This document shows, in pieces, positions 112-22,949 of a stretch of 64,000 bases of DNA. Origin of the DNA: Alphaproteobacteria bacterium (lineage in GTDB: Bacteria > Pseudomonadota > Alphaproteobacteria > JAAEOK01); NCBI GenBank assembly GCA_024244705.1, contig JAAEOK010000077.1, forward strand, positions 1 to 64,000. The letters are read 5' to 3'. The notes under the pieces were generated by a model that was not told the DNA's origin, did no database searches, and saw only the letters and a program-made list of their open reading frames with translations. Within the stretch, counting starts at the first letter, position 1. Every line of letters starts with the position of its first letter. The translations under genes and the position numbers were made by a program.

Positions 112-291
112 ATGCCGTGGAAAGAGAGTTCGGTTATGGAGGAACGGTTACGATTTGTTGCCCGGTTGCTGGAAGGCGAGGGCATGAGCGATGTCTGCCG
201 GTCTTTCGGGATATCCCGAAAGACCGGCTACAAAATCTTCAACCGCTACAAGGAACACGGTCTTGAGGCGTTGTGCGGCCGCTCGCGTTGA
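112..291 (+). pseudogene. IS481-family transposase, N-terminal fragment
   Basis: The 59-residue product starts MPWKESSVMEE and carries the helix-turn-helix of IS481-type transposases (FGISRKTGYKIFNRYKEHG), then stops right after GLEALCGRSR, where family members continue into the DDE catalytic domain. The DDE core is absent, so it cannot transpose. Bases 50-111 resemble the usual leader of such elements, but I could not define a terminal inverted repeat. The break falls where a truncated TIM-barrel gene on the other strand begins, so this is a rearrangement junction. Family membership is recognised from the N-terminal sequence; an intact copy is not in the window. Confidence 0.8.
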
Positions 292-710
292 AACCCCAGG
301 CCCGCCGCGTCGAGTTCCGCTTTTATTTCCTGACCGTACATCCCGACAAAGGGTTCGTTCATCACACCCGCGGCACCCAGCGACTCGACAGCGTCGAGCA
401 GGTTCTCGATTGGCTGGCCCGGATCGTGTGCGCCAAGGCCCAAAATGACCGGACAGACGCCGGCATGTGCGAGAACGTCGGGGGCGACGGCAAAGGTAAG
501 GTCGTTTGCATTGTCATACGGCAGGAAAGACAGCAGGGAAGGCAGGCCGCGGCAGCGATACACCGCCGTGCTGTAGGCGGCCAATAGATCGGCACCGCCT
601 TTGACGGCGCCGCGCGCCGTCAATCCGGAGCCGACCCCGGCCATTATCAGCGGTCGGCCGCTATCGATTGAGCCCTTGAAACGAGCCGAGATCTCCTCAA
701 GCATCGTCAT
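246..710 (-). pseudogene. PEP_hydrolase-family TIM-barrel protein, C-terminally truncated
   Basis: The reading frame begins MTMLEEISARFKGS and shows the N-terminal half of the family: GVGSGLTARGA, the AYSTAVYRCRG segment, PYDNANDL, and AAGVMNEPFVGMYG. Homology ends at GLGFQRE (about residue 142); the last residues are out-of-family read-through into the IS481 fragment on the other strand. Intact paralogues here have about 277 residues, so the second half of the barrel is lost, including the HVGLTTGG, HGGP and SSxER motifs. The start at 710 overlaps the stop of the UPF0261 gene by 14 bp, which suggests translational coupling. Probably non-functional. Confidence 0.8.
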
Positions 711-1956
711 TGTCTCCGCCCGCGCTTTCGTGACCTCTCCAAATCCCGATGAAGGCTTCGGCCACGCGGTCCGCAAATGCCGGGTCGTTGATGTTGAACT
801 CCTCCTCGATGCACGGGATGTCCGATCGCAATGTTCGGCGGATTTCGGCACAAAACGCGTCATCCGCGTCGTCGTCGATATACGGGCCATCCGGCCGCTT
901 CTGATAGCTGTCGAACCCGGAAAGCGGAAGCGCCACCACAGTCGGCCCTTTGGCTTGGTTCAGCTTACCGGTCATGATTCGCGCGAGCTCGATGGCCTCC
1001 TCCTTCTTCGTCCGGACGGCCGAGACATAGGGATTGTGCACGATCAGGCGCCGATCCGGCCCATTGAATTCGGCAGGAACGGTATCGCGTGGGCCAAAAT
1101 TCAACACTTCGATGGCACCCGGCACGACGACTTGAGGAATGCTCTGCCGGCCGGCCGCCGACATCCGATCGGGCCCGGCACTGAAGACACCGCCGAGGAA
1201 TTCGTCCGTAAGCTCGCTGGTCGTGAAATCCACGACGCCGTCGACCAGCCCTTCATCGATCATTTGCTCCATGGCGCGGCCGCCCGAGCCGACGGCGTGG
1301 AATACAATGGTTTCGAATCCCGCGTCATGGAGTCGGTCCTGAAGCCGCAGGACGCCTGGTGTCGTCACCCCGAACATGGTTATGCCCACAAGGGGGCGGC
1401 CGGCGTCTTCACCTTCACCCCGCCACACCGTCATCCCCGCGGCGGCCAAGGCGGCATTACCGAGGATCCGTCTCGAGAACCGGTTGAGGCCCGCAATGTC
1501 GGTCACGGAATGCATCAGCGTGATGTCGCGGGTGCCGATATAGGCGGCGGCGTTCGTCACCATGGTCGTCAGCAGCAGCTTCGGCATGCCAAGCGGCATC
1601 GCCCGCATGACGCCGCTGATGACCGAGGCGCCGCCCGAGCCGGCCGCGCCGAGGACCGCGTCGCAGCGGCCTTCGTCTCGAAGCTTCTTCACGATCGTTG
1701 TCGCACCACGCTCCATGGTCGCGAGCGCCTTGGCGCGAGTATCGCTTCCCTCGCGGGAGAAGCGCAATGTCTCGATCGTCGTCCCCGCCGCGGTCGCCAC
1801 GTCCGCGGCTGAGATGTCGGGCTCGATCGCCGGGTCCTTCAGTACGCCGATATCGACGAGAACGACCTCGACGCCGGCGGTCAGCAGGTGTTCTTGCAAA
1901 TACCGGTATTCGCGGCCCTTGGTATCCAGCGTGCCGATCAGAACGACGGTCGCCAT
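697..1956 (-). CDS. UPF0261 (Tm-1-like ATP-binding domain) protein
   Basis: The 419-residue protein is a stand-alone UPF0261 domain. It opens with VLIGTLDTKGREYRYLQEHL and has the conserved GAAGSGGASVISGVMRAMP, the VTDIAGLNRFSRR segment, the MFGVTTPGV loop, HAVGSGGRAMEQ, and a C-terminal NINDPAFAD. The family corresponds to the N-terminal half of tomato Tm-1, which binds tobamovirus replication proteins; its bacterial role is unknown. It lies between two TIM-barrel genes of the family that forms the other half of Tm-1: 12 bp after the upstream one and overlapping the downstream one by 14 bp. An ATP-binding or enzymatic role is inferred only from the family name. Confidence 0.85.
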   Translation of the reverse strand: MATVVLIGTLDTKGREYRYLQEHLLTAGVEVVLVDIGVLKDPAIEPDISAADVATAAGTTIETLRFSREGSDTRAKALATMERGATTIVKKLRDEGRCDAVLGAAGSGGASVISGVMRAMPLGMPKLLLTTMVTNAAAYIGTRDITLMHSVTDIAGLNRFSRRILGNAALAAAGMTVWRGEGEDAGRPLVGITMFGVTTPGVLRLQDRLHDAGFETIVFHAVGSGGRAMEQMIDEGLVDGVVDFTTSELTDEFLGGVFSAGPDRMSAAGRQSIPQVVVPGAIEVLNFGPRDTVPAEFNGPDRRLIVHNPYVSAVRTKKEEAIELARIMTGKLNQAKGPTVVALPLSGFDSYQKRPDGPYIDDDADDAFCAEIRRTLRSDIPCIEEEFNINDPAFADRVAEAFIGIWRGHESAGGDNDDA

Positions 1957-1968
1957 CCTCTTCTCGCC

Positions 1969-2799
1969 TCAGCTCTTGAAACTCAGGTCTTGATAGGCCC
2001 GCAACACCTCCGTCAGCGCTTTCTCGACCGGAATGCGTTCGATGCTGGAGGCCGCCAGGAAGCCGTCGACGTCGGTGGTCTCGAAACAGCGTTGAACCTC
2101 CTTCGGACTTTCGAACGGGCCACCATGCGCCACGACAAGGATATCGTCGCGGACCTCGCGGGCGGCGGCGCTGAGTTCGGCGGTCTTGCGGCAGGCGGCA
2201 TCGAGATCCAGTGCGTCGCCCGCACCGATCGTTCCGCCGGTGGTCAGGCCGACATGGGCGCCGATCACGTCGGCGCCCGCATCGGCCATCTGCCGCATCT
2301 CGTCCGGCGTGAAGGCATAGGCGATGGTGAAGATATCGCGCTCTCGGCATTTTCGTATCAGCGCGACCTCCTTTGTATAGCCCAGCCCGGTCTGGTCTAT
2401 ATGCCCGCGGAAAGTGCCATCGTAGATGCCGGCGGTCGGAACGTTGGTGATCCCGGAATAGCCGAGTTGCAAATAGGTGGTGAATAGGGCATCGACGTCG
2501 CGATAGGGGTCGGCCGCGCCGATGCCGCCGATCACCGGCGTATTGGGCGATACGGGAACGATTTTCCCGGCAAGGTCGATCGTCATCTGATTGGCGTCGC
2601 CGTAGGCAAGATAGCCGGCGAGCGATCCGTGGCCATCCATCCGGAATGGGCCGGTATTATAGGCCATGATGACGTCGACGCCGTTCCGGTCGAGGATCTT
2701 GGCGACGAGGCCGATGCCGGCCCCGCCCATGATAAGCGGCTTGCCTGCGGCCACTTTGGCGCGAAGTCTTTCAAGTATCTGCACACGGGAAAAGACCAT
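1969..2799 (-). CDS. PEP_hydrolase-family TIM-barrel protein
   Basis: The 276-residue product begins MVFSRVQILERL; this start is chosen because GGAGGAG sits 7 bases upstream. Motifs along the barrel are GGAGIGLVAKI, the YNTGPFRMDGHGSLAG segment with YGDAN, GGIGAADPYRD, GYSGITNVPTAGIYDGTFR, GAHVGLTTGGTIG, AHGGPFESP and SSIERIPVE. The family is named phosphoenolpyruvate hydrolase-like and matches the C-terminal half of plant Tm-1, but a reaction is not established for this group. It is the first gene after a 366-bp spacer and is followed 12 bp later by the UPF0261 gene, so the two halves of a Tm-1-like protein are probably made together. Confidence 0.85.
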   Translation of the reverse strand: MVFSRVQILERLRAKVAAGKPLIMGGAGIGLVAKILDRNGVDVIMAYNTGPFRMDGHGSLAGYLAYGDANQMTIDLAGKIVPVSPNTPVIGGIGAADPYRDVDALFTTYLQLGYSGITNVPTAGIYDGTFRGHIDQTGLGYTKEVALIRKCRERDIFTIAYAFTPDEMRQMADAGADVIGAHVGLTTGGTIGAGDALDLDAACRKTAELSAAAREVRDDILVVAHGGPFESPKEVQRCFETTDVDGFLAASSIERIPVEKALTEVLRAYQDLSFKS

Positions 2800-3165
2800 T
2801 TCAATCTCCTCCAAAAGGGACGTTATCCGAAATCGCTTTCACTTACGTTCGCGGGGCCATGCCGAGCACGTTGCTGCACAATTCCCGACCGCCCATCAAA
2901 ATATCGGCTCATGGATACAGGCGGACCTAACGCCCCAACACACTGAACGCCCCAACACACTGAACCTCCGCTTTCCGCCCGATAGCAGGCATATCCAGCG
3001 GCCTTGCGGAACGTCCGGTCACGACCCTCAAAAGGCATAACTCATGGGAAAACGCCGTTCTCAGGGTGTCACTTCGCCTTGCAATGTCTCACTCGGGACC
3101 GACATGCGCCAAACTCGACGGATCGTGGGCCAACGAGCTCCTTAGCTTCCCCTCGGTCCGCTCAC
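2800..3165. other. Intergenic spacer with candidate regulatory DNA
   Basis: This 366-bp stretch separates the amidohydrolase stop codon from the downstream TIM-barrel gene. I see no convincing coding sequence. It contains a perfect 17-bp tandem duplication (2929-2962) about 130 bp upstream of the 2799 start, and a good ribosome-binding site at the end. It is the only large gap in the minus-strand train, so the 2799-246 genes probably have their own promoter here; I could not pick a clear -35/-10 pair. Confidence 0.5.
2929..2962. repeat. Perfect 17-bp tandem repeat, two copies
   Basis: The unit AACGCCCCAACACACTG occurs at 2929-2945 and again, without mismatch or spacer, at 2946-2962. It lies in the spacer upstream of the second TIM-barrel/UPF0261 block. 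It could be a regulator-binding site or a simple slippage duplication; the sequence cannot tell which. Confidence 0.75.
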
Positions 3166-4503
3166 TTACGCGATCAGCCGCATGCCCGCCGGGTCATGGC
3201 TCGGGACCTTGTGGAACGCGCCGTCCTTCATGATCGCGACAAGGCGATCGTGGTCCTGGAGGACACGAATGTTCGCCAGCGGGTCGCCATCGACGAGCAG
3301 CATGTCGGCGAGATAGCCTTCGCGGATGAGGCCGAGTTCGTTGCCCATGCCCATGATCTCACCGCCGTATTTGGTACCGGCTTGGATCGCCTCCATCGGC
3401 GACATGCCGACCATATCGACGAAATATTCGAGGTCCTTGGCGTTGGTGCCATGGGGCGTCCAGGCGAAGCCGTAATCGCCGCCAATCAGCACTCGGATTC
3501 CGCGCCGGTGCATCGCCTTCATAGTCTCGATCGCATGTTCGAGCTCGCGTTCATAGGCGATGGTGATCGGCGTGCCGGGCACGATCCCGTACTCGGCCGC
3601 ATTGCGCGCCGTGTTGATCAGCCAGGCCAAGCCGGGTGCGACGAAATGCTTGTCCTTGTTGGCCTCCAACATATCGAGCGTCTCGTTGTCGGAGAACGAG
3701 GCATGGTAGATGATCTCGATCCCGAACTTGACGCAGCGCTGGATCGATTCCTTGGACCGCGCATGTGCCGCTAGCCGCCGGCCGCGTCCGCGCGCCTCGC
3801 TGACGGCGACCGCGATCTCCTCGTCGGTGAACTGGTTCTCCTCGGCACCCATGCCAGTGATCTCTTCCCCGGAGAGATTGATCTTGATCGTATCGACGCC
3901 CCATTTCATCAGTTCGCGGACTTTCCGCCGCATCTCCTCGGGCCCGGAGACAACGATGCCGAGATTGAGACCCTCATGGGGAATATGCGGTAGCGAGGCG
4001 TCGCCAAGGCCACCCACGGCGGTCAGTTCCGGCCCTGCGGCGGTATATCGTGGTCCTGGAACCCGCCCGGCATTGATCGCGTCGCGGATCACCACATCAA
4101 GCCGGGGTTTGGCCGCCGCCGCCCCGTAGCCGGCAGTGAATCCGGCATCGAGGACCGTTTTTGCCATATAGGCACAGTTCAGCGCGTGCTCCTCGGGGGG
4201 CATCAACTGTATCGGATCGATTCCCGGTGCGTTGTTCCAACTGAGATGGAGGTGGGCGTCGACCAGACCCGGCATCAGCGTCATCCCGCGGCCGTCGATC
4301 CGTTGGCCGCCGCTGCCGCCGATGCCGAAACCGCCGCCGGAGCGGTTGATCGCCCTGATCCGGTTGCCGGCGACGGTTACGTCGCCGGTGTAAGGCGGCT
4401 CACCGGTACCGTCGATGATGCGCACGTTGCTGAAAACGGTTTCGTGTTCGCCGCCGTTGGAGGAGCGTTTTCCGCCCCAGCCGACGAAAGTAGTGTCGGT
4501 CAT
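3166..4503 (-). CDS. Metal-dependent amidohydrolase (imidazolonepropionase-like)
   Basis: The 445-residue protein has the amidohydrolase layout: a small N-terminal beta-sandwich part (VTVAGNRIRAINR), PGLVDAHLHL with the HxH metal motif, later metal or substrate histidines in LAAHARSKES and IIYHASF, a conserved aspartate in IGGDYGFAWTPHG, and a C-terminal GYLADMLLVDGDPL. Such enzymes hydrolyse amides or cyclic ureides; the substrate here is unknown. AAAGGAG lies about 10 bases before the ATG at 4503. The N-terminal 35 codons overlap the tail of the preceding alpha/beta hydrolase. No signal peptide is seen, so it should be cytoplasmic. Confidence 0.85.
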   Translation of the reverse strand: MTDTTFVGWGGKRSSNGGEHETVFSNVRIIDGTGEPPYTGDVTVAGNRIRAINRSGGGFGIGGSGGQRIDGRGMTLMPGLVDAHLHLSWNNAPGIDPIQLMPPEEHALNCAYMAKTVLDAGFTAGYGAAAAKPRLDVVIRDAINAGRVPGPRYTAAGPELTAVGGLGDASLPHIPHEGLNLGIVVSGPEEMRRKVRELMKWGVDTIKINLSGEEITGMGAEENQFTDEEIAVAVSEARGRGRRLAAHARSKESIQRCVKFGIEIIYHASFSDNETLDMLEANKDKHFVAPGLAWLINTARNAAEYGIVPGTPITIAYERELEHAIETMKAMHRRGIRVLIGGDYGFAWTPHGTNAKDLEYFVDMVGMSPMEAIQAGTKYGGEIMGMGNELGLIREGYLADMLLVDGDPLANIRVLQDHDRLVAIMKDGAFHKVPSHDPAGMRLIA

Positions 4504-5296
4504 GTCCCTGACTCCTTTGCTGTCCGCATTTTAGCGCGGTCTCGTCCAAATGCGCGCGCAGCAGTTCCGCCGAGCGCTGCGGCGCTTCCAGCATCATCCA
4601 GTGGCCGACGCCGGGCACGATCTCGAGCCGCGCCCCGGCGATGGCTTGTTGCAGGTGGCGCGCCATGTCGACTGGCGCGACCGGGTCCTTGTCACCGGCA
4701 ATCAGCAGCGTTGGGCAGCCGATCGCTGCGTGATCGGCGACGTCTGCCACACTCAGCGTCGAACAATGGGCGGCGTAGCCGGCCGGGTCCTGACGCATCA
4801 GGCTTTCGCGCACAAAGGCCGCCGCGGCCGGATGACCATCGGCCACGCTGCCCGCCGCCACGGCATCGGCGATGGCGGCCATGCCCGCCGACCGCGCCAC
4901 CTCGGCCCGTTCCTTGAGCGCCGCGCGCGCGGCGGTGGGCGGCTCTAGGATGGGCCCGAACAGGACCAGGCTGGCCACCGTTTCCGGCCTCTCCGCGGCG
5001 ATATACTGACAGATCAGCGTGCCCATGGAGTGGCCGACGAAGTGAGCCCGCGCGACGCCCGCCGCCCGCATGGTATCGCGCACCGCCGACGCCAGACCCG
5101 CGAGGCCGGGTAACCCCGGCCGGGTGGCCGATCGCCCCGCGCCGGGTAGGTCCGGGCGCAGAACGCGAAAGCCGTCCAGCCCTCCGATCAGCGGCTGGAA
5201 GCTGTTGCTGGTGCCGCCGAGGCCATGGACCATGACCACCGCCGGTCCGTCGCCGGAATCTTCGATGACCATGCTGCCAAGCCGGAGTTCGGTCAT
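4400..5296 (-). CDS. Alpha/beta hydrolase
   Basis: The 298-residue product has an oxyanion-hole motif VMVHGLGG, nucleophile elbow GHSMG, catalytic aspartate in AGDKDPVAP and histidine in PGVGHWMMLEAP. The fold is complete by about residue 264 (LRAHLDE). The remaining 34 residues are basic, low in hydrophobics and read over the first 104 bp of the next gene in another frame, so they are probably an unselected tail left by loss of the original stop. A GGAGGCGATT sequence precedes the ATG at some distance. In this cluster it may cleave an ester, lactone or C-C bond of the transported compound; the substrate is unknown. Confidence 0.82.
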   Translation of the reverse strand: MTELRLGSMVIEDSGDGPAVVMVHGLGGTSNSFQPLIGGLDGFRVLRPDLPGAGRSATRPGLPGLAGLASAVRDTMRAAGVARAHFVGHSMGTLICQYIAAERPETVASLVLFGPILEPPTAARAALKERAEVARSAGMAAIADAVAAGSVADGHPAAAAFVRESLMRQDPAGYAAHCSTLSVADVADHAAIGCPTLLIAGDKDPVAPVDMARHLQQAIAGARLEIVPGVGHWMMLEAPQRSAELLRAHLDETALKCGQQRSQGHDRHYFRRLGRKTLLQRRRTRNRFQQRAHHRRYR

Positions 5297-5337
5297 CGCC
5301 TAAATCGCCTCCACCGGGTTTTCGGGCAGCGCGCGCA

Positions 5338-6834
5338 TCATCCGTGACCCGTCGTCTCGTGCTCGGAGATCAAGACCGTCGATGCGGTCGTCTGTCGGGC
5401 TTCCAGGGCACGATGGGCGGCCGCGGCCTCGGTCAACGGGACCCGGTTGCCGACCTCGATCGAGAGTATCCGCCGGTCGATGGCGTCGAACAGCCGCTCC
5501 GTGAGGACGGCCAACTTCTCGGGCGTGTCCGTGTAATGGCCGTAATTCGGCCGCGAGATCGTCGCCGAGTTGGATGCCAACGCGTCGATGTCCCACGATC
5601 CGATCGGGCCCGAGGCCTGGCCGAAACTGACAAGATGGCCGCAGGTTGCCAGGGCAGCGACTGAATGGGCGAAACTGTCGCGGCCGACCGCGTCGTAGAT
5701 GACGTCCGCGCCGCGTCCTCCGGTCAGGTCTCGGACCTGTTGTTCGAGGCTGGCCGATCCCGGCAGGATGACGTGTTGGGCGCCGACGCCGCGGGCGATA
5801 CGGGCCTTCTCCTCGGTCGACGTCGCGCCGATGACGGTTGCGCCGAGATGGTTCGCCCATTGGCACAGCAGCCGGCCGACGCCGCCGGCGGGCGCGTAGA
5901 CGAGGACCGTCTCGTCGCGGCCGACCGCGTGGACCTGGTGCAACAGAAAGGCAGCGGTAATTCCCTTCAACAAGCCGGCCGCGGCAGTCACGTCGTCGAT
6001 ACTGTCGGGCAGCGGGATGACCAGCGCGGCATCCATCGTCCGCACCGTCGCATAGGCGCCAACCGGCGGGCAGGCATAGGCGGCGCGCTGTCCTGGGGCC
6101 AGATGGCGGACGCCCGGCCCGACATCGACGACGCCGCCGGCCGCCTCCATGCCCAAGGCGCCCGGCGGCGTCAGCAGGTCGAAGTAGCCGGTCCGGCAAT
6201 AGACATCGATGTAGTTGACGCCGATCGCGGTCTGACGCAGGCGCACCTGCCCGGGCCCCGGCGGTGGCGCCGAAACCGGCGCCGGGTGCAGCTCGTCGGC
6301 CCCGCCGTAGCGATCGATGACCATCGCCATGCCGTCGAGGGCCGGCCCCGATGCCGGCGCCGCGCCAGCCGCCAATGAAGATTGCGGCATCGGGGCATGC
6401 GATTCGACCCGCGACCGGATCGCTTCGAAACCGGCCTCGTAGACGCTTTCGGCGACCAACTGTTCGAACTCGCGTTCGCGCCCGCTGGGGGTGTCGAACC
6501 GGGAGCTCCACGTCCAGAAGGTCCGGTCGCCGTCGGTCACCGGCTTCAGTGCGACCTCGGCGACATAGTTCATCAGGGGGATCTCGCTTTCAGCGATCGC
6601 ATAGCGGAAGCTGCGGTCCTTGTCCGACATCGCCAGAAGCTGCTCGCGCAAATGTTCGCCGGTGCCGAGGACGAAATTGCGTACGGCGCCGACCTGATCG
6701 GTCCGCTTGCCGCCTTCGAGTGTGCTGCGGTCGACGGCGGGATGCCACCGGTCGTGGCCGTTGAAGTCGCGCAGCACCTCCCAGACCGCCGCGATCGGGG
6801 CATCGATGATCGTGCTGCGGCGGACGGTGACCAT
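5338..6834 (-). CDS. SRPBCC domain fused to quinone oxidoreductase-like MDR
   Basis: This 498-residue protein joins two families. Residues 1-145 are an SRPBCC/polyketide-cyclase-like lipid-binding fold (IDAPIAAVWEVLRDFNGHDRWHP) very like the neighbouring 145-residue protein. A short Ala/Pro linker (146-168) leads into a medium-chain reductase of the quinone oxidoreductase type (GVNYIDVYCRTGY, APGQRAAYACPPVGAYA, NADPH-binding YAPAGGVGRLLCQWA). The zinc ligands of alcohol dehydrogenases are not evident. It starts 1 bp after the stop of the SRPBCC gene, so the fusion probably followed a local duplication. A role in reducing an enone or quinone held by the SRPBCC domain is inference. Confidence 0.85.
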   Translation of the reverse strand: MVTVRRSTIIDAPIAAVWEVLRDFNGHDRWHPAVDRSTLEGGKRTDQVGAVRNFVLGTGEHLREQLLAMSDKDRSFRYAIAESEIPLMNYVAEVALKPVTDGDRTFWTWSSRFDTPSGREREFEQLVAESVYEAGFEAIRSRVESHAPMPQSSLAAGAAPASGPALDGMAMVIDRYGGADELHPAPVSAPPPGPGQVRLRQTAIGVNYIDVYCRTGYFDLLTPPGALGMEAAGGVVDVGPGVRHLAPGQRAAYACPPVGAYATVRTMDAALVIPLPDSIDDVTAAAGLLKGITAAFLLHQVHAVGRDETVLVYAPAGGVGRLLCQWANHLGATVIGATSTEEKARIARGVGAQHVILPGSASLEQQVRDLTGGRGADVIYDAVGRDSFAHSVAALATCGHLVSFGQASGPIGSWDIDALASNSATISRPNYGHYTDTPEKLAVLTERLFDAIDRRILSIEVGNRVPLTEAAAAHRALEARQTTASTVLISEHETTGHG

Positions 6835-6835
6835 C

Positions 6836-7273
6836 TCAGGCCCCGAACCTGCCCTTCAGCGCATCGAACCCGCCCTGGAAGACGTCGCCGCCGATGCTGG
6901 CGACCAGTTCGGCCTCGCGGTCCGTCGGGCAATCGAATTCGGCTGACCATTCGGCGAAGGTCCGCGCGCCGTCGGTGATCGGCGTCAGCTTGAGTGTGGC
7001 GACATAGTTCTCCACCCCCATCGGACTCTCCAGGATCGAATAGGTGCAGCTGTAGTCGTAGTCCGACAGAGCCAGCAGCCGCTCGCGGATGAAGCCGCCG
7101 TCGGTCAGGCGGAAGGCGCGCACGCAGCCGACCTGGTCGGCCGGCGCGCCGCCTTCGATCCGGCTTTCCGCGATCAACGGATGCCAGTCGGGCAGGCCGT
7201 TGAAATCGCGGACCGTCGCCCAAACACGCTCGGCCGGCGCGGCGATGACCGACGACGCATAGACCTGCGCCAT
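6836..7273 (-). CDS. SRPBCC family protein
   Basis: The 145-residue protein is a single START/Bet v1-like SRPBCC domain: VIAAPAERVWATVRDFNGLPDWHP at the N-terminus, then GGAPADQVGCVRAF and YDYSCTYSILESP. These folds bind hydrophobic ligands and include cyclases and hydrolases; no catalytic residues can be assigned here. It closely resembles the first 145 residues of the downstream fusion protein, which points to tandem duplication. It is 2 bp from the flotillin stop on one side and 1 bp from the fusion start on the other, so co-translation is likely. Confidence 0.85.
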   Translation of the reverse strand: MAQVYASSVIAAPAERVWATVRDFNGLPDWHPLIAESRIEGGAPADQVGCVRAFRLTDGGFIRERLLALSDYDYSCTYSILESPMGVENYVATLKLTPITDGARTFAEWSAEFDCPTDREAELVASIGGDVFQGGFDALKGRFGA

Positions 7274-7275
7274 TC

Positions 7276-9333: not shown

Positions 9334-9348
9334 GATTCCATCCTCCCT

Positions 9349-10182
9349 TTAGCCGCTCGCAATATTCTTGAAGGCCATGGTTTGCTCGGTCAGCGCGCTT
9401 TCCGTCGGCAGCCGTTCCATCGACGAGGCGCCATAGAAGCCATGGCAGGTCTCTGTATTGTCCAGGACATAACGGGCGTCGGCCGGCATCGACACCGGCC
9501 CGCCATGAACCAGAACGATGATGTCCGGGTTGATCTTGAGCGCCGCTTGCGCCCAGGCATCGACCAGCGCCGGGCAGTCCTCGAGGGCCAAGGCGGTCGC
9601 GGCGCCGATCGACCCACCGGTCGTCAGGCCGAGGTGGCAGACGACGAAATCGGCTCCCGCCTCCGCCATTGCCGCCGCATCGTCCTCGTTGAACACATAG
9701 GGCGTGGTCAGCAGGTCCTTCTCGCGGGCGAGGCGGATCAGATCGACCTCCTGGCCATAGGACATGCCGGTTTCTTCGAGATTGGCGCGGAAGCTGCCGT
9801 CGAAGAGGCCGACCGTCGGAAAATTCTGGACGCCGGTAAAGCCGACCGCCTTCAACTCGTCGAGGAAGCGGTCGAAGATGCAGAACGGGTCGGTCCCGTT
9901 GACGCCCGCCAGCACCGGCGTTTGGTGCACCACCGGCAGCACCTCGCGGGCCATTTCCATGACCACGTCGTTGGCGTTGCCATAGGCCATCAGCCCGGCC
10001 AGCGACCCGCGTCCGGCCATCCGGTAGCGCCCTGAATTGTAAATCACGATGAGGTCGATGCCGCCCGCCTCCTCGCATTTGGCGGACAGGCCGGTGCCGG
10101 CGCCGCCGCCGATGATCGCCACGCCCCGGCGTTTCATGTCGTGGAACTTTTCCAGCAGGTCTTTTCGCTCAAAGCGCGGCAT
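9349..10182 (-). CDS. PEP_hydrolase-family TIM-barrel protein
   Basis: The 277-residue protein is a full-length family member: [13 protein letters not shown], the [17 protein letters not shown] segment, [56 protein letters not shown] and SSMERLPTE. Its start overlaps the 3' end of the LivF-UPF0261 fusion gene by 14 bp, so the two Tm-1-type halves are made from adjacent, probably coupled, cistrons, as in the block at 697-2799. The ligand or reaction is unknown. The flotillin gene follows after 15 bp. Confidence 0.87.
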
Positions 10183-12460: not shown

Positions 12461-13247
12461 GGCCCTGCCCCAGATAGATTTCCTGCACCTCGGGGTCGTT
12501 TTCGATCTCGTCCGGCGTCCCTTCCTTGAAGATCCGCCCGTTGTGCATCATCGTCACGCTCTCCGAGACCCGCAGCGCCACGTCCATGTCGTGCTCGATG
12601 ATGATGTATCCGATGTGATCGGGCAGCGAGCGCAGGATCTCGACCAGTTCCCCCCGTTCGGTCGGCGACAGGCCGGCCGCGGGCTCGTCGAACAACAACA
12701 GCCGGGGCGCCCCGGCCAGCGCCAGGGCGATTTCGAGCTGGCGCTGCTGCCCGTGGCTGAGCGCGGCGACCGCCGTGTCCCGCACATTGTCGAGATGCAC
12801 GGCCTCGAGCAGCGTTTCCGCGGCCTGCATCGCGGTGTCGTCGGGCGGCGGTCGGCGCAGCGCGAACCGCCCGCGGCTGACCCCACGGCAGGCGAGGTAG
12901 ATGTTGTCGATCACGCTGAGGCCGTCGAATAGCAGCGAGATCTGATAGGTCCGGCGCAGGCCGCGCCGAATCCGTTCGTGGACCGGAAAGTCGGTCACAT
13001 CCTCACCAAACAGGCGCACGCGGCCCGTGGTCGGCGGGAAATCGCCGGTGATGGCATTGAACAAGGTCGTCTTGCCGGCACCGTTCGAGCCCAGAACCGC
13101 GCGTCGTTCCCCCGCCTGCACCGTCAGATTGATGTCGGCAAGGGCGACCAGCGCGCCGAAATGGCGGCTGACCGCTTCAAGCTCCAGCGCAAAACGGCCG
13201 GCGCTTTGAAGTCGGGACAGCGCGTCGGTTCCGGGCGTCGACGGCAT
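12453..13247 (-). CDS. ABC transporter ATP-binding protein, LivG type
   Basis: The 264-residue ATPase has Walker [10 protein letters not shown], a Q-loop region RRTYQIS, signature [10 protein letters not shown], Walker [14 protein letters not shown] and the switch histidine in IIEHDMDV. LivG-type proteins pair with LivF and drive a LivH/LivM permease of the HAAT class (branched-chain amino acids, amides, urea and similar). The first 16 residues extend beyond the usual LivG start; an internal start is possible. It lies 5 bp after the binding-protein gene and overlaps the fusion gene by 8 bp, which supports a single operon and ATPase pair. Confidence 0.9.
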
Positions 13248-13252
13248 CGGAC

Positions 13253-14500
13253 TTACATGCAGGACGGGTTTTCGCGGCCGACCTGCCCGTATTTCAGGAA
13301 CTCCTCATAGGAGAGGCCGAAGGTCTGCGTGACCTGTGGGATCACCTCGATCGTCTTGTTGAGCAGGTTCCCATCGGGTCCTTCGATCACTTCGGTCAGG
13401 AACATGTCCGCGATCGCCTGGCGCCGTTCGTCGAGCGACACCTTGCCGGTCGGGGTGTCGAATTCCAACGCGGACAGGGCCGCGCGGAACTTGACGCCAC
13501 CGTCGGAGAGGTCGCCGCCGACCTCGTTGAGCGCCAACAGGGCCGCCTTGGTATTGATGTAATAGCCATGGGCGAACAGCGAGGGCGACGGGAAGCCGTC
13601 CGGGAACTGCTTCTTGTAGGCAGCAACGAACCCGTTCCACGCCGGATTGTCCCAGGTGTCGGAGATTGGTCCCGCCGACGGCGTGCCGATCACGAAATCG
13701 CGGGTCCGGCCCTTCGAGCCGAGCACGGTCTGGTCAACGGTGATCGATCCGCCAATCAACGGCAGCTCGCCGCCGGTCTGCTCGTACTGGGTCAGGAAGT
13801 TGACCGCATCGGCGCCACCGAGCGCGACGTAGATCGCATCGACGTCATCCGGGAGCGCGGCGATGACCGACGAATAGTCCTTGTTGCCGATCGGGACCCA
13901 GAACCGGGCATCGATCGGCGCCTTGCCGCCGAGGCGGCAGAACGGCTCAAGAAAGCCGAAGACCTGGGTATAGGGGAAGGAATAGTCCTCGGCGAGCACG
14001 GCGACCTTGCGGTAGCCCTTCTTGTTGTAGGCATACTCGCCGAGCCCGGCCATCCACTGGGCGCCATCGGTGCTGAAGCGGAAGAAGTTCTCCGCCGGGC
14101 TGCGCAGGGTCGTGTCCTGGGCCGCCGAGGTGCCGTTGAGGAAGGTCACGTTGGGTTGGGTCTTGGCATAATCCTTGACCGCGAGGCCCTCGGAACCCGA
14201 CAGCGGGCCGATCAGGACCTTGACGCCGTCCTGCTCGACGAGCTTCCGCGTCGCGCGGATCGCGCTGTCGGGCGACGCGTCCGACGATCCGGTGATGAGT
14301 TCGATCTTCTTGCCGCCGGCCATGTGGCCGAACTCTTCGAGCGCCATCCGGACGCCCCGGATGCCGTCCTCACCGGGCGCGGCAAACGCGCCCTCCAATG
14401 TTGCCAACGCGCCCAACTTGATTGAATCCTGGGCGACGGCAGGGCTCGCGAATGCCAACACGATGGCCGCCGCAAGTGCTTTCTTGGCTAGTCCGTGCAT
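13253..14500 (-). CDS. ABC transporter periplasmic solute-binding protein, LivJ/amide type
   Basis: The start at 14500 is chosen for GGAGGTGATT just upstream. The 415-residue product has a cleavable signal peptide ending ASPAVAQ, then the type I periplasmic-binding fold: DSIKLGALATLEGAFA, GEDGIRGVRMALEEFG, ATRKLVEQDGVKVLIGP, and GYRKVAVLAEDYSFPY. It captures the ligand for the LivHM permease encoded just downstream in the sequence but upstream in transcription. The specificity cannot be read from the sequence; the neighbours argue against a simple amino-acid transporter. Confidence 0.9.
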   Translation of the reverse strand: MHGLAKKALAAAIVLAFASPAVAQDSIKLGALATLEGAFAAPGEDGIRGVRMALEEFGHMAGGKKIELITGSSDASPDSAIRATRKLVEQDGVKVLIGPLSGSEGLAVKDYAKTQPNVTFLNGTSAAQDTTLRSPAENFFRFSTDGAQWMAGLGEYAYNKKGYRKVAVLAEDYSFPYTQVFGFLEPFCRLGGKAPIDARFWVPIGNKDYSSVIAALPDDVDAIYVALGGADAVNFLTQYEQTGGELPLIGGSITVDQTVLGSKGRTRDFVIGTPSAGPISDTWDNPAWNGFVAAYKKQFPDGFPSPSLFAHGYYINTKAALLALNEVGGDLSDGGVKFRAALSALEFDTPTGKVSLDERRQAIADMFLTEVIEGPDGNLLNKTIEVIPQVTQTFGLSYEEFLKYGQVGRENPSCM

Positions 14501-14515
14501 AATCACCTCCACTGT

Positions 14516-15586
14516 TCAGGTTTGTTCGAGCGACCCGGCAGCGTGCCGGTCGACCCGTTCCACGCGGCCGGACTTGGACCGCGTGCTTCCGCCAATCCGG
14601 AGCCGGGGACGGATCCGGTGCCAAATGCCGATAAGGCCATCCGGCGAAAATAAAACCACCAAAAGAAATGCCACTCCGATCACGGTGTTGAACCGCTCCC
14701 GGTCGATCAGGTCGATCGCGAAATTCTCGAGCAGGACAAAGGCCAGCGCCCCGAGGAACGGCCCGACCGGGTGCCGGATGCCGCCAATCACGGCAATGAC
14801 CAGGATGTCGATGACGATGCCGACGCCGACCGAGCCCGAGGATATGCGGCCGTTGAACCAGACAAATAGGACGCCCGCGGTGGCCGCGATCAGGCCGGAC
14901 AGAAAATAGGCGACGATGCGATGCAGGGTTACGTTGTAGCCGAGCGCGCGCATGCGCCGCGGGTTATCGCGGATGGCCTGGAGCCCGAGCCCGAAGGTCG
15001 AGCGCGAGGCGTAAAGGACGGCGAGGAAGAAGAAGCCCGCCACGGCCAACGATAAATAGTAGAACGGCACTGGATCGCGCCAATAGACCCCAAGCAGCGT
15101 CGGCGGCTCGACCCCGGCGAAGCCCGTCCAGCCGTTGAACAGCACGTAGTTCTGCCGCACCAGGTAGAAGAAGGCGACGGCGATCGCCAGCGTGATCATG
15201 ATCGTATAGATACCCTCGGTCCGGACCGCGACCGCGCCGACGAAGGCGCTGAACAGGGCGGCGCCGAGAATGGCGGTCGGCACGAACAGCCACCACGGCC
15301 AGTCGAGCCCCATCACTTCGACGCTGTTGTCGCCGAGGATCGCGACCAGATAGCCGGCGAGGCCGGCCACCGTCATTTGGGCCAGGCTGACCATGCCGCC
15401 ATAGCCGGCCAGCATCATCAGCGACAGCGCGATCGTCCCGAGGATCAGCGAATAGGCCCCGATCTGGAAGACGAAAAAGTCGGAGGCGAAGGTCGGATAG
15501 GCGATCAGGACGACCACGGTGGCGATTGCCGCTGGATGGATATCGCTGACGGAATGGCGGCCGGAGAATAGGCTGCGCGCGTTCAT
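14516..15586 (-). CDS. ABC transporter permease, LivM type
   Basis: The real gene begins at the ATG at 15586 (MNARSLFSGRHSVSD); the open frame further upstream only shadows livH. The 356-residue protein has roughly nine hydrophobic segments and LivM hallmarks: YSLILGTIALSLMMLAGYGG, VSLAQMTVAGLAGY, the EAA-like loop AIRDNPRRMRALGYNV, and the C-terminal GGIRHPVGPFLGALAFVLLE. It forms the permease dimer with LivH, whose stop codon is only 2 bp before this start. The C-terminus is basic and carries on beyond the last membrane segment. Confidence 0.9.
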   Translation of the reverse strand: MNARSLFSGRHSVSDIHPAAIATVVVLIAYPTFASDFFVFQIGAYSLILGTIALSLMMLAGYGGMVSLAQMTVAGLAGYLVAILGDNSVEVMGLDWPWWLFVPTAILGAALFSAFVGAVAVRTEGIYTIMITLAIAVAFFYLVRQNYVLFNGWTGFAGVEPPTLLGVYWRDPVPFYYLSLAVAGFFFLAVLYASRSTFGLGLQAIRDNPRRMRALGYNVTLHRIVAYFLSGLIAATAGVLFVWFNGRISSGSVGVGIVIDILVIAVIGGIRHPVGPFLGALAFVLLENFAIDLIDRERFNTVIGVAFLLVVLFSPDGLIGIWHRIRPRLRIGGSTRSKSGRVERVDRHAAGSLEQT

Positions 15587-15588
15587 GC

Positions 15589-16599
15589 CTAGCGTTCCCC
15601 CATGATGCCCTGCGGACGCACGGCGAGGACGACGACCATGATCAGGAACGTCAGCACGACGCCGTAAGTCGGGAAGTAGGCGAGGCCGAACTGTTCGGCG
15701 AGCCCGATCAACAGGGCGCCGATCGCCGCGCCGGTGACCGAGCCGAGGCCGCCGACGATGACCACGATCAGGGACGCCAGCAGGTAACGGAGGTCCTCGC
15801 CCGGTGCAATTGACAGCGCCGTCCCGCCGACGACGCCGGCAAACCCGGCCAGCCCGGCGCCGATCGCGAAGACAAGGGCGAAGACGAGCTGCACGTTGAC
15901 CCCGGTTGCCGACAGCATCTCGCGGTCGTTGACGCCGGCGCGGATCATCATCCCGACCCGGGTCCGGTTGAGGAACAGCCAGAGGCCGATCCCGACCGCG
16001 ACCGCGACGAAGAGGACGGACAGGCGATAGACCGGATATTTGATGTAGACCGGGTCGCCCGAGGCCTTGATTACCGATACCACCGGCAGGCTGGCCGCAC
16101 CGAACAGCCATTCCGGCGGCTGGAACTGATAGGTGGTGCCGGTCCACACCGCCAGCATCAGGTCGGCGGCGATGATCGAGATGCCGATCGTGACCAGGGT
16201 CTGGCGCAAATCGTCCCCTTCCATGCGGCGAAAGACGAGGACCTGCAACAGCATCCCGCTGAGCCCGATGGCGACGAAGGCGGCGGCAAGGCCGAGGAAC
16301 CAATTGCCGCTGGCCTCGGCGACCTCGTAGCCGATATAGGCGCCGAGAAGATACATCGAGCCGTGCGCCAAGTTGACGTTGCGCATCAGGCCGAAGACCA
16401 GGGTGAAGCCGCTGGCGACGAGGAAATACAGCCCGCCCAGGGTGATCCCGTTGAGCAGCGTATTGACGAAGGTCTTCTTGCGGCCGAGGGCGTCGATCAG
16501 CCAATCGGGCCAGACCGCGGCGATCAGCCACAGAAAAAGCGCCGCAACAACGGCGATCACGATCGCCCAAAAGGTATGGCGCTCGATGAACTGCCTCAT
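15589..16599 (-). CDS. ABC transporter permease, LivH type
   Basis: The 336-residue membrane protein has the LivH signature NTLLNGITLGGLYFLVASG, GLMRNVNLAHGSMYLLGAYI and the ATPase-contact loop GVNDREMLSATGVNV. It also has an N-terminal membrane helix and a short segment ahead of the core. It is the first gene of the minus-strand train and the likely transcription start lies in the 426-bp upstream gap. A GC-rich hairpin stands directly before its start codon, which may limit ribosome access. Confidence 0.9.
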   Translation of the reverse strand: MRQFIERHTFWAIVIAVVAALFLWLIAAVWPDWLIDALGRKKTFVNTLLNGITLGGLYFLVASGFTLVFGLMRNVNLAHGSMYLLGAYIGYEVAEASGNWFLGLAAAFVAIGLSGMLLQVLVFRRMEGDDLRQTLVTIGISIIAADLMLAVWTGTTYQFQPPEWLFGAASLPVVSVIKASGDPVYIKYPVYRLSVLFVAVAVGIGLWLFLNRTRVGMMIRAGVNDREMLSATGVNVQLVFALVFAIGAGLAGFAGVVGGTALSIAPGEDLRYLLASLIVVIVGGLGSVTGAAIGALLIGLAEQFGLAYFPTYGVVLTFLIMVVVLAVRPQGIMGER

Positions 16600-16607
16600 G
16601 GGGTTTT

Positions 16608-16633
16608 CCGTGCCGGCCTAAGGCCGGACACGG
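16608..16633 (-). promoter_or_regulatory. Leader hairpin directly before livH
   Basis: On the minus strand CCGTGTCCGGCC and GGCCGGCACGG flank a TTA loop, giving a near-perfect 11-bp stem with one mismatch, 8 bases before the livH ATG. No T-run follows, so it is not a standard terminator. It could occlude the ribosome-binding site or stabilise the 5' end of the message. Confidence 0.5.
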
Positions 16634-16827
16634 CGCTCCCGCGTGGCGCCGAAATGCGGCATATCGTTGTCCCTCCCTGCGGCGCCGTCGCCAGCGCGAC
16701 GGACACCCTTCATTTCGCTAGCGCGGGCCCCCGATCGGGCGGCGCCCATACCGCTGCAGCGTTGTTAGTTCCGCTTTGAAAAGCCTGTCTCGCCGGGACC
16801 GCCGCTGCAACCGGCGAAATCAATCGA

Positions 16828-16847
16828 TTGGGTAAATTTGGGTAAAA
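16828..16847. repeat. 10-bp tandem direct repeat in AT-rich control region
   Basis: TTGGGTAAAT at 16828-16837 is followed directly by TTGGGTAAAA at 16838-16847. The 10-bp period puts both copies on the same face of the helix, as expected of a tandem protein-binding site. It sits in the divergent control region of the transporter operon, so the nearby Fis-type regulator is the natural candidate ligand, but that is inference. Confidence 0.6.
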
Positions 16848-17025
16848 TTATTTGATATATTGACTGAATCCATTTTCGGTCGTGAGTCATTCTCAGGCCG
16901 GTCCGACCGAATCGCCATGGCGCGACCCCTTGCCGACCGTGGGACATCGGCCGGCTGCGGCGCGATGCCCGGAAAGGACGGCTTATCGCGGTCGCAATTC
17001 GGCCGGCCGGGGGCTAGGCTGGCCG

Positions 17026-17712
17026 ATGATGGTGAATTGCATGACATGGCGGATCGTCCTGCGGCACGGAGGCCCGGACGCGGCGGCGGACATTCCGGCC
17101 GCGGTCTTGACGATCGGGCCCCGGTTCCGCCAGGAGGGGATGCCGGAGGAGGTCAGCATTCTGCTGCCGACCAACGCGGGTCCGAAGCGACTTATCGACG
17201 CCGTCGCCGAGGGCTCGGCGCCGGTCGACGGCGCGATCCTCGGCCTGTTTCTCGCCAGCCCGTTCCTGAATGTCGAATCGGAGGGGCGGCGCTTGGCCCA
17301 GGCGGGGGTCCGATGGGTGACGAATTTGCCCAGCGTCGCCCAGCAGGACGAGGAATTCGCCCGCCAGCTGTCCGATGTCGACCTCGACCACCGCCGTGAG
17401 CTGCAGTCGTTGGCGGCCGTTCGCGACCAGGGGTTCCGGATCGCCCCCGTCGTCGCCGACGGTGCGGACGCGGTGGCGGCAGTCGACATCGCTCCCGACG
17501 CCTTGATCGTGCTGCCGCGGGTTGCCGATTTCGCCGCCGGTTTCCCGTCCCTGCGGCAGCGCGGCGCCGCCATCCAGGCGGTCGCCAATGCCGTGGCGGC
17601 TGCGGGCTGGCCGGGGCCCGTCTTCGGTCTCGGCAACACGGGGGAGGCCGAACACGAACGGCTGTGGCCGGAGCGCCTCGACGGCATGATCTGCCGCCCG
17701 GTGCCGGTGTGA
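17026..17712 (+). CDS. Divergent, shortened PEP_hydrolase-like TIM-barrel protein
   Basis: The 228-residue product (MMVNCMTWRIVLRHGG) is not obviously a known enzyme. Its middle resembles the other barrels here: GLFLASPFLNVESEGRRLAQ, GVRWVTNLPSVAQQDEEFA, DLDHRRELQSLAAVRDQGFR and DALIVLPRV line up with the corresponding parts of the regulator at 17728. It lacks the N-terminal glycine-rich strand and the HGGP and SSxER motifs, so it is probably not catalytic and may bind ligand only. The start could also be 17041; no strong ribosome-binding site decides it. It converges on the regulator gene with only 15 bp between stops. Confidence 0.6.
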   Translation: MMVNCMTWRIVLRHGGPDAAADIPAAVLTIGPRFRQEGMPEEVSILLPTNAGPKRLIDAVAEGSAPVDGAILGLFLASPFLNVESEGRRLAQAGVRWVTNLPSVAQQDEEFARQLSDVDLDHRRELQSLAAVRDQGFRIAPVVADGADAVAAVDIAPDALIVLPRVADFAAGFPSLRQRGAAIQAVANAVAAAGWPGPVFGLGNTGEAEHERLWPERLDGMICRPVPV

Positions 17713-17727
17713 CGGGGTGGGTCCTGT

Positions 17728-19518
17728 TCAGCCGTCGAGACCATACTTCTTGATCTTGTTGTAGAGGGTCTTGCGAGAAATGCCGAGGGCGGCCGCTGTC
17801 TCCGTCCGGTTGAAGCCGTGTCGCCAGAGGGCATCGACGATGCTGTCCTTCTCGGTGCGGATGACGGGCGCGGCGTCGGCGTCCTGTTCCAGGACCGGGA
17901 GCAGCTCGGACGGTTGAACCGGCTCGTCCCACGACCGGTCGGCAAGCGCGCCGAGGAGGGCGCGCAATTCCGCCTCGTTGCCCGGCCAATGATGAGCGTG
18001 GAGTTGTTTGGCCGCCGCCGCCGAGAAACGCGACCAGTCGACGGCAACGCTCAGGCTGTCTGCGGTCATCGCCTCGATCACGGTCATCAGGTCGTCGATG
18101 CGCTCGCGGAGCGGCGGCAGGCGCAGGGTCCAGCCGGTCATATGGGCGATCAGCTCGGGCTCCAGTCCGGCGCCGGCAAGGGCTTCCTCTTCGTGGCCCT
18201 CGGCAACCGGAAAGTCGCAGACCAGGGCCAGCCGCGGCACGACCGGCAGCGGGCGCCGCGTGCCGACCGCGCGGAAGGCGCCGTCGCGGAGCGCCCGGGC
18301 GAGCCGCCGCTGGGTCGCCGGCGGCAGGCGCTCGGGCGCACGAATGACAAGCAAGCCGATCTCGCTGTCGGCGAGCGCCGGCCGGCGCCGGGTGATCGTG
18401 TCGCGGTGGCCGAATAGGATATTGCGCGCCCGGACGGGTCGGTCCTCGCCGGCGACATCGACAGTGACGATCGCCGACGCGCGGGCCTGACCCTTCGGGG
18501 CGCTCAAAGCCTTCAGCGCCGGCATCGCGCCGATGCCCCGTTCGGCGAGCAGCAGGACCGGCTCGGATGCCGACGCCAGCGCCCGCAAACGGCGCAAAAA
18601 GGCGAGATGAGGCCGCGAGGTGCCGACTAAGCCGAACTGCCGCGCCCAGGCGACGAGGCCGGAATCGTCCGAATCAAGTTCGGCGCCATGCTTGCTGGCG
18701 TGGCGAAAGCGGTCAATCTGATCGGCGACCGACACCTCGAGCGGGATGCGCTCGATCGTCGAGCCGCCGACATAGCCGTCGATCGGCGCGAGGTTAACGA
18801 TTCGCCCCAGGTCCTCCGCGGTGACGATTGGCCCGCCTTCGAGCAAGAAGCGCGTCGCCGGGTTGATACGTTTTATCAGGCGGCCGACCTCGCGGGCCAC
18901 GGTAGCGACCTCCTCGATCGTCGCCCGGCCGCGGTGGCCGAAAACGCCGCCGACGTTCCAACCCAGGTTCAAGCAGATGAGGTCGATCGCCGCATCGGCC
19001 GCCAGCCGTGCCTGGGTCCGCGTCGCGCAGTAGAACATAGAGGTCAGGCCGACATCCTGGGCCGCTCGCAGGAGCTCGACCTCGCGCTCGATCCCACGCC
19101 CGGCACGCGCCAGGAGTTGTTGCATCGGGCGCGAATAGTGCATGCAGCTGGGGAAATTGACCGCCCCGGCGAAGCCGGCGTCGCGGATCGCCTCGGCCTT
19201 GCCCACCGGGTCGAAATCTGGTTCCCAGACGTTCACGCCGAGCAGGACCGGAATCCGGCACTGAACGAGCAGCTCCTCGCGGGCGAAGCGGTCGGTCAGG
19301 TTGTCAGCATCGAAGATCGGTAGCATGCAGGCGATCGAGGGCGCCCCCATGTTGCGCAGCCGGCCGGCGTTGATCGCCAGCAGGATATCGGCCCCGCCGT
19401 GTTCGGCGGCGAGCGCCGTATTGCCCGACCCGATCGCCGCACCGATCAGGAACTTGCGGGGAAACGGCAGCCCGCGGCCATCATCGTCGCCACGGAAGCC
19501 TTTTCCCGACGTAGCCAC
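17728..19518 (-). CDS. Transcriptional regulator: PEP_hydrolase-like sensor, degenerate AAA+, Fis-type HTH
   Basis: The 596-residue protein starts with GTG at 19518, AAAGG about 10 bases upstream. Residues 22-270 form a PEP_hydrolase-type barrel (IGAAIGSGNTALAAEHGGAD, GVNVWEPDFDP, GAVNFPSCMHY, LNLGWNVGGVFG, LEGGP, GGSTIERIP). Residues 294-520 align with NtrC-type AAA+ domains (ILFGH at 367, RLPPLRERIDD at 466, WPGNEAELRAL at 511). The P-loop equivalent, AERGIGAMP near 325, has no lysine; the GAFTGA loop is missing after ILFGH; and the Walker B acidic pair is replaced by LLVIRAPER. The C-terminus (557-594) is a Fis-type HTH (FNRTETAAALGISRKTLYNKI). It probably senses a ligand and controls the transporter operon without sigma-54. 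Confidence 0.88.
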   Translation of the reverse strand: MATSGKGFRGDDDGRGLPFPRKFLIGAAIGSGNTALAAEHGGADILLAINAGRLRNMGAPSIACMLPIFDADNLTDRFAREELLVQCRIPVLLGVNVWEPDFDPVGKAEAIRDAGFAGAVNFPSCMHYSRPMQQLLARAGRGIEREVELLRAAQDVGLTSMFYCATRTQARLAADAAIDLICLNLGWNVGGVFGHRGRATIEEVATVAREVGRLIKRINPATRFLLEGGPIVTAEDLGRIVNLAPIDGYVGGSTIERIPLEVSVADQIDRFRHASKHGAELDSDDSGLVAWARQFGLVGTSRPHLAFLRRLRALASASEPVLLLAERGIGAMPALKALSAPKGQARASAIVTVDVAGEDRPVRARNILFGHRDTITRRRPALADSEIGLLVIRAPERLPPATQRRLARALRDGAFRAVGTRRPLPVVPRLALVCDFPVAEGHEEEALAGAGLEPELIAHMTGWTLRLPPLRERIDDLMTVIEAMTADSLSVAVDWSRFSAAAAKQLHAHHWPGNEAELRALLGALADRSWDEPVQPSELLPVLEQDADAAPVIRTEKDSIVDALWRHGFNRTETAAALGISRKTLYNKIKKYGLDG

Positions 19519-19797: not shown

Positions 19798-20124
19798 TCA
19801 CGATTTTCGCGCTTTCAGGATAGCTTCGTCGCCGAGGTGGAAATGGAATTCGATTTCGAGGGTTCCATCATCTTCGAGTTCGGCGGATCCGTCACCGCGC
19901 GCCTCGTCCATTTCATCGAAGCCCTCCCAAGTGAAGAAGATGATCCGACGGGAATATTCGCAATCGAGGCCGCCCTTGACGCAACCGAATGCAAAATCTC
20001 CATGGCCATCACTTTCAAAGGTCATGTGAGCGGGCTCCAGGAGATCGAGAAAGGTACGATCCCAGAGATCGGCTTCGGTGATGCGCCATTTGCCGATCAG
20101 TTCGCAGACAATCTCCCTTGTCAT
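19798..20124 (-). CDS. Conserved hypothetical protein, IS passenger
   Basis: The 108-residue acidic protein (MTREIVCELIGKWRITEADL) belongs to a conserved small-protein type with WDRxFLDL, FESDGHGDFAFG, DCEYSRR and the FFTWEGFDEMDEARG motif; I know no function for it. Its ATG overlaps the transposase stop codon as ATGA, so it is probably translated by reinitiation behind the transposase. Its stop codon TGA lies at the inner edge of the element's left terminal repeat. The gene is therefore wholly inside the IS and moves with it. A regulatory or host-benefit role is open. Confidence 0.8.
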   Translation of the reverse strand: MTREIVCELIGKWRITEADLWDRTFLDLLEPAHMTFESDGHGDFAFGCVKGGLDCEYSRRIIFFTWEGFDEMDEARGDGSAELEDDGTLEIEFHFHLGDEAILKARKS

Positions 20125-22859: not shown

Positions 22860-22949
22860 TGGCGGAGGGGGTGGGATTCGAACCCACGGTACGCCTAAGC
22901 GTACAACGGTTTTCGAGACCGCCCCGTTCGACCACTCCGGCACCCCTCC
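22860..22949 (-). tRNA. tRNA-Ser (anticodon CGA)
   Basis: Read on the minus strand, GGAGGGG opens the acceptor stem and pairs with the 3' end before GCCA, so the CCA is encoded. The anticodon loop is CTCGAAA, giving anticodon CGA for UCG codons. A long variable arm (ACGCTTAGGCGT) and the T-arm GGTTCGAATCC confirm a class II serine tRNA. Its 3' end faces the probably acquired gene at 21331-22761. Confidence 0.97.

Follow-up and report, generated by a model that had tools for sequence, protein, structure and literature searches.

The UPF0261 family and its partner, a PEP_hydrolase-type barrel, are widespread, and although their native job is unclear, plants have made a virus-resistance gene from a fusion of the two; plant Tm-1 binds viral proteins, and UPF0261 and the barrel are reported to co-evolve (PMC5028733). 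In bacteria, Novosphingobium aromaticivorans starts the catabolism of acetovanillone with MarK, a single-component kinase (PMC13101465, citing Hall et al. 2025), while the SRPBCC protein CoxG has been proposed to recruit carbon monoxide (CO) dehydrogenase to the membrane (PMC4240915). Here, we describe a gene cluster at positions 246 to 19518 of a 64,000-nucleotide stretch of alphaproteobacterial DNA (contig JAAEOK010000077.1 of assembly GCA_024244705.1; hereafter the window), in which a UPF0261 domain is fused to LivF, an ATPase of a HAAT-class ATP-binding cassette (ABC) importer. We read this cluster, at a probability of roughly 0.5, as a catabolic operon encoding an ABC importer to which a small-molecule kinase is tethered. 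The component families are already known, the new point being the LivF-UPF0261 fusion, of which no description was found in the literature searched; nor did that search return a functional study of UPF0261 or PEP_hydrolase proteins.

A preceding interpretation made from the DNA letters alone (the sequence-only reading) had treated the UPF0261 domain beside the transporter as a separate unit and made no mention of the most unusual part of the cluster, namely, that this domain and the LivF ATPase form one 763-residue protein (Table 1). Matches to both PF06792 and PF23189 above cut-off, which define UPF0261 membership, were obtained for the fusion and for a second, unfused protein of the cluster. 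The 80 UPF0261 loci in GTDB species genomes that lie closest to that of the window include at least 75 LivF fusions. LivF retains its Walker A, signature and Walker B motifs in 87 of 88 fused proteins, and the polar residues common to Tm-1, Saro_1862 of N. aromaticivorans and unfused relatives are kept at most sites in 89 of 89 fused UPF0261 domains; both halves of the fusion look active, and they are joined by a linker of 76 to 162 residues. In a tree of UPF0261 domains, the fused copies fall into one well-supported set (55 rows, with five rows labeled unfused, one of them, L106, wrongly so, as its 752-residue frame is a fusion). One main origin followed by a few losses would be the simplest reading of this tree, in which the fusion looks to have been secondarily lost in two lineages, L068 and L093. 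Adjacent but unfused LivF and UPF0261 genes occur in G001, in Tagaea and, outside the Pseudomonadota, in Thermomicrobium roseum, which has the order LivHMJGF-UPF0261-barrel. Downstream of the UPF0261-barrel pair of T. roseum (L016:14009-21902) lie phosphoenolpyruvate (PEP)/pyruvate-binding and PEP-utilizing genes, possibly representing a HpeHI-type two-component kinase.

The genes surrounding the fusion are conserved with it. Of 55 full-length fused loci, 54 contain LivH, 54 LivM, 54 flotillin, 54 both SRPBCC units, 53 LivJ and 46 the barrel, and gene order is kept in 54 of the loci, which span alpha-, beta- and gammaproteobacteria; a window-type cassette of Variovorax paradoxus (CP063167), annotated gene by gene, has the same order. 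Homologues of LivH at 54 to 86% identity adjoin UPF0261, with the single exception of G315, in which the cassette is present and the UPF0261 domain degenerate, whereas other Liv permeases (at most 44% identity) do not. The association of these families, as advanced in the sequence-only reading, withstood comparison with chance. In a sample of 398 Pseudomonadota genomes, of which 32 encode PEP_hydrolase and 51 UPF0261, all 32 of the former also encode UPF0261, with the pair lying within approximately 2 kb in every case, against an expected co-occurrence of 4.1 (hypergeometric P of 3e-34, a value that is too small given shared ancestry; by genus, PEP_hydrolase occurs in 13 of the 232 sampled), and the cassette order recurs with the HAAT transporter. 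Since 19 of the 51 UPF0261 genomes (approximately one-third) are without any PEP_hydrolase, UPF0261 can act alone. The link to the transporter is not specific to the HAAT class, because other UPF0261-barrel pairs adjoin importers of the CUT1 type, together with cupin and Gfo/Idh/MocA genes; the pair appears to be a processing module that has been fitted to a number of imported compounds, with HAAT as one partner.

Within the window, Pfam scans of positions 246 to 19518 recovered every family that the sequence-only reading had named, including the flotillin, two SRPBCC units, medium-chain dehydrogenase, alpha/beta hydrolase and amidohydrolase placed around the HAAT transporter. The minus strand is transcribed in the order LivH, LivM, LivJ, LivG, LivF-UPF0261, barrel 1, flotillin, SRPBCC, SRPBCC-dehydrogenase, alpha/beta hydrolase and amidohydrolase. 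That close spacing joins the whole into one operon holds for positions 16599 to 3166 only, where overlaps of 8 and 14 bp and gaps of 1 to 15 bp are followed by a 41-bp gap before the alpha/beta hydrolase and a 104-bp overlap between hydrolase and amidohydrolase; it does not hold for the barrel 2 gene, which is preceded by a gap of 351 bp. Predicted internal terminators number 12, compared with 9.6 in shuffled sequence, a difference that speaks neither for nor against a single operon. We consider it almost certain that the cassette constitutes a conserved operon.

Table 1. Features of the cluster at the left end of the window, listed from right to left.
Feature	Start	End	Strand	Remarks
Regulator	17728	19518	-	N-terminal PEP_hydrolase-like barrel (putative sensor, pseudo-enzyme), degenerate AAA+ region, C-terminal Fis-type helix-turn-helix
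Half-barrel related to PEP_hydrolase	17026	17712	+	Below Pfam cut-off; convergent to regulator
LivH-type permease (BPD_transp_2)	15589	16599	-	
LivM-type permease (BPD_transp_2)	14516	15586	-	
LivJ-type solute-binding protein (Peripla_BP_6)	13253	14512	-	
LivG-type ATPase	12453	13247	-	
LivF-UPF0261 fusion	10169	12460	-	763 residues; ABC ATPase at approximately 1-245, linker of approximately 100, UPF0261 N and C domains at 354-751
PEP_hydrolase barrel 1	9349	10182	-	Complete, enzyme-type; Pfam 426 bits
Flotillin/SPFH protein	7276	9333	-	
SRPBCC protein (Polyketide_cyc2)	6836	7273	-	
SRPBCC-dehydrogenase fusion	5338	6834	-	Medium-chain dehydrogenase of quinone-reductase type
Alpha/beta hydrolase	4400	5296	-	Closest to 3-oxoadipate enol-lactonase models, below cut-off; overlap leaves true 3' end uncertain
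Amidohydrolase	3166	4503	-	Nearest Xaa-Pro dipeptidase/arginine carboxypeptidase types (below cut-off)
PEP_hydrolase barrel 2	1969	2814	-	Complete; second, separate module; Pfam 319 bits; 41% identity to barrel 1
UPF0261 protein 2	697	1956	-	Unfused; second module; Pfam N and C domains
PEP_hydrolase barrel 3	282	713	-	N-terminal half; earlier "fragment at 246"; Pfam 130 bits over profile positions 2-138 only

The importer qualifies as a HAAT system, with a solute-binding protein, two permeases and two ATPases that carry Walker A, Walker B and signature motifs. None of its subunits reaches the NCBIfam equivalog cut-offs for Liv or Urt importers of branched-chain amino acids or urea, and an assignment of the substrate from LivJ was dropped, because even the best match to a solved protein (1.3e-38) is too remote. 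Charged coiled-coil repeats abound in the flotillin, whose length varies widely among relatives, from 562 to 1129 residues in annotated cases. Downstream, hydrolase, amidohydrolase and dehydrogenase travel together, all three being found in 22 of the full-length fused loci and none in the other 33. In the examples read from these 33 loci (type B), the downstream genes instead specify a molybdenum hydroxylase resembling CO dehydrogenase, its MoxR and CoxE partners, Amidohydro_2, a protein of the metallo-beta-lactamase fold and a gluconolactonase fused to an isochorismatase.

All 2 UPF0261 and 5 PEP_hydrolase matches of the 4.5-Mb genome fall within the cluster. The claim of five PEP_hydrolase barrels was nevertheless overstated, as these comprise two complete enzymes, a pseudo-enzyme sensor, a half-barrel and a truncated remnant. 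The membership threshold (PF09370, whole-protein score above 33.8 bits) is passed by barrels 1 and 2, the sensor of the regulator (193 bits) and the remnant, but not by the half-barrel (31.5 bits), which is without the N- and C-terminal motifs. K35, Y48, H183, T187 and H226 are near-invariant in 97 enzyme-type barrel copies, and H183 and H226 are located at the ends of two beta-strands in a structure model, the site of TIM-barrel active sites. In 16 regulators, by contrast, K35, Y48, H183 and H226 are kept in none and T187 in one, while D43, R54, N120, E145 and S253 are kept in all 16 and R257 in 15. Because the enzyme residues are replaced and others retained, the regulator barrel is most simply regarded as a dead enzyme that would still bind its ligand. 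The regulator of the window has neither a GAFTGA loop nor an intact Walker A motif and does not class as a bacterial enhancer-binding protein; GAFTGA was absent from all four regulators checked, and control by sigma-54 was ruled out, since no -24/-12 match lies upstream of livH either. Regulator and half-barrel, counted as cluster parts in the sequence-only reading, keep that place only in close relatives plus a few further loci (3 of 55 full-length fused loci). A half-barrel near a barrel-sensor regulator, again without enzyme motifs, recurs in L018, L017, L019, L074 and L076-L078; in rhizobia it lies apart from the regulator, whereas in Azospirillum and close relatives the two are convergent.

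The best indication of what the UPF0261 half may do comes from its fold. A structure model (mean predicted local distance difference test score of 90) best matches tomato Tm-1, followed by Saro_1862, the nearest non-plant solved UPF0261 structure, in which acetovanillone is bound (9MPY). As Saro_1862 binds this compound and is very probably MarK, an aromatic kinase, UPF0261 is best taken as a family of small-molecule kinases; residue conservation is consistent with the placement of the fused domain among MarK-type kinases, and its being a kinase is somewhat favored. The substrate need not be acetovanillone, since that pathway's carboxylase is missing here.

From the gene content, fusion, conservation, intact motifs and pseudo-enzyme pattern obtained by computation, we infer the following sequence of events. 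LivHMJG, together with the ABC half of the fusion, would import an organic compound, and the UPF0261 half, as an ATP-dependent MarK/Tm-1-type kinase that the importer holds at the inner membrane face, would phosphorylate this substrate or its first product on arrival. The PEP_hydrolase barrel may then act on the phosphorylated intermediate, while flotillin and SRPBCC proteins are predicted to keep soluble oxidoreductases near the membrane (of quinone-reductase type here and a molybdenum hydroxylase in other lineages), and the downstream hydrolases would open rings, lactones or amides. The barrel copy without enzyme residues is proposed to be the ligand sensor of the regulator. Catabolic import is the part of this scheme that we hold to be very likely. 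That phosphorylation is coupled to import is put forward tentatively. Of the uptake-sense-catabolise unit first proposed, uptake and catabolism are strongly supported by conservation and sensing by the pseudo-enzyme pattern, while the five barrels, the second module and the HAAT specificity did not stand.

Several observations weigh against an importer with a tethered kinase. The identity of MarK with Saro_1862 is only presumed from the shared organism and compound, and the fused domain is only approximately one-third identical to Saro_1862. No biotin carboxylase was found among the scanned proteins of positions 246 to 19518, and the acetovanillone pathway (Hpe/Acv/MarK) was thus not recognized. 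Fold searches single out no reaction for the barrel, the 639 PDB chains matched at E <= 0.001 being too many to discriminate between chemistries. The barrel is missing next to the fusion in eight otherwise complete cassettes, mostly from Mesorhizobium. In L060 (7644-9701), an intact LivF is followed by a degenerate UPF0261 domain, with T19, K20, K124, H223 and H308 among the lost residues; transport may therefore be independent of the kinase. The L060 genome is without any PEP_hydrolase match, and flotillin and SRPBCC genes still adjoin its degenerate fusion. Complete type-A cassettes in which the fusion has no adjoining barrel are L053, L054, L090, L105, L114, L118, L131, L141, L143 and L145; the two of these genomes that were searched in full (G107 and G173) each have one PEP_hydrolase elsewhere, beside another UPF0261 gene.

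The UPF0261 half might instead be a regulatory domain, which would bind a substrate-like ligand and ATP and throttle the transporter (trans-inhibition) as in MetN, MalK and ModC, leaving catalysis to the other UPF0261 and barrel proteins. UPF0261 sits C-terminal to the ABC ATPase, the usual place of regulatory domains, and both the retention of the fusion in L060 after loss of UPF0261 residues and the eight cassettes without an adjoining barrel agree with such a role. The binding of viral proteins by Tm-1 indicates that a function is possible for this fold with no catalysis known (PMC5028733). Nearly all fused domains, however, keep every residue conserved in Tm-1, Saro_1862 and unfused relatives, whereas purely ligand-binding copies such as the regulator barrels show residue loss, and in the unfused loci, ancestral by arrangement, LivF is followed by UPF0261 as a gene of its own; a regulatory role is, on balance, doubtful. 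Alternatively, the fusion may only secure equal amounts and a common location for two proteins whose reactions, transport and phosphorylation, are independent steps of one pathway. The unfused adjacent versions, the apparent losses of the fusion and the loose linker length fit this explanation, but the fusion has been kept across many genera, suggesting that tethering confers some benefit, and we deem it unlikely.

An assembly by chance or by mobile elements, with no joint function, could be imagined from the left end of the cluster, where barrel 3, a truncated remnant, ends at approximately position 282, at the contig end, in insertion sequence-like DNA that recurs at several other genome sites, and from the nearby IS5-family transposase and tRNA-Ser genes. 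For the core cassette, chance clustering is ruled out by the whole-genome counts (32 against 4.1) and by the order conserved in 54 of 55 loci of three classes, and for the cluster as a whole such an assembly is highly improbable; the module at 246-2814 may, by contrast, have arisen in this way. This second UPF0261 module, formerly included in the system, lies outside the conserved cassette, being separate and truncated by the insertion sequence-like DNA, and no second barrel/UPF0261 module was seen beside the cassette in L050, the one relative covered far enough downstream. Close to the right-hand end of the cluster, the transposase gene (20121-21218) is followed by a 476-residue reading frame (21331-22761) that matched nothing in Pfam or NCBIfam at the thresholds applied and by tRNA-Ser(CGA) (22860-22949), beside which no integrase was seen. 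The G+C peak of the window (0.71, at 40044-42254) corresponds to the housekeeping primosomal helicase PriA and not to an island.

The cluster shows UPF0261 and the barrel as members of a recurring catabolic operon, in which UPF0261 is attached to the motor of an importer, and may mean that import and the first breakdown step are physically joined. With the acetovanillone-bound structure of 2025, the native function of these families becomes directly testable, as the choice of substrates is narrowed by the transporter, the order of reactions can be predicted from the operon and the ligand read by the regulator can be predicted from its dead-enzyme sensor. Coupling, if true, would represent a new way of trapping nutrients in bacteria. 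A fusion-bearing ABC importer that phosphorylates its entering cargo, with the neighboring barrel processing the product and the dead barrel copy sensing it, would be an ABC counterpart of the phosphotransferase system; this is speculative, and the likeness to group translocation is hypothesized to be one of working only.

Among described systems, the CO dehydrogenase (cox) clusters also contain SRPBCC genes, as CoxG, and the type-B relatives share CoxE-like and molybdenum hydroxylase genes with them, whereas the window has no molybdenum hydroxylase and its SRPBCC domain is fused to a quinone-reductase-type enzyme instead. Mll9387 (2P10), a PEP_hydrolase barrel of Mesorhizobium, shares its family with barrel 1, to which it is 64% identical in the fold match, and is labeled only as a putative phosphonopyruvate hydrolase, no reaction being proven for either protein. 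HAAT importers such as LivFGHMJ and UrtABCDE have the same two BPD_transp_2 permeases, Peripla_BP_6 protein and two ATPases with intact motifs, but the LivF of the window carries a complete UPF0261 domain. MarK/Saro_1862 shares the UPF0261 fold and conserved polar residues with the fusion, yet is a single protein with no ABC ATPase that works with a carboxylase pathway. Tm-1 and Tm-1-like plant proteins combine UPF0261 and barrel domains as the cluster does, and the fused domain is more similar to Tm-1 (307 bits, with approximately 41% identity by fold search) than to Saro_1862 (195 bits); in Tm-1, however, UPF0261 is joined to the barrel in one polypeptide, whereas here the two are separate genes, with UPF0261 joined to LivF and the barrel encoded by the next gene.

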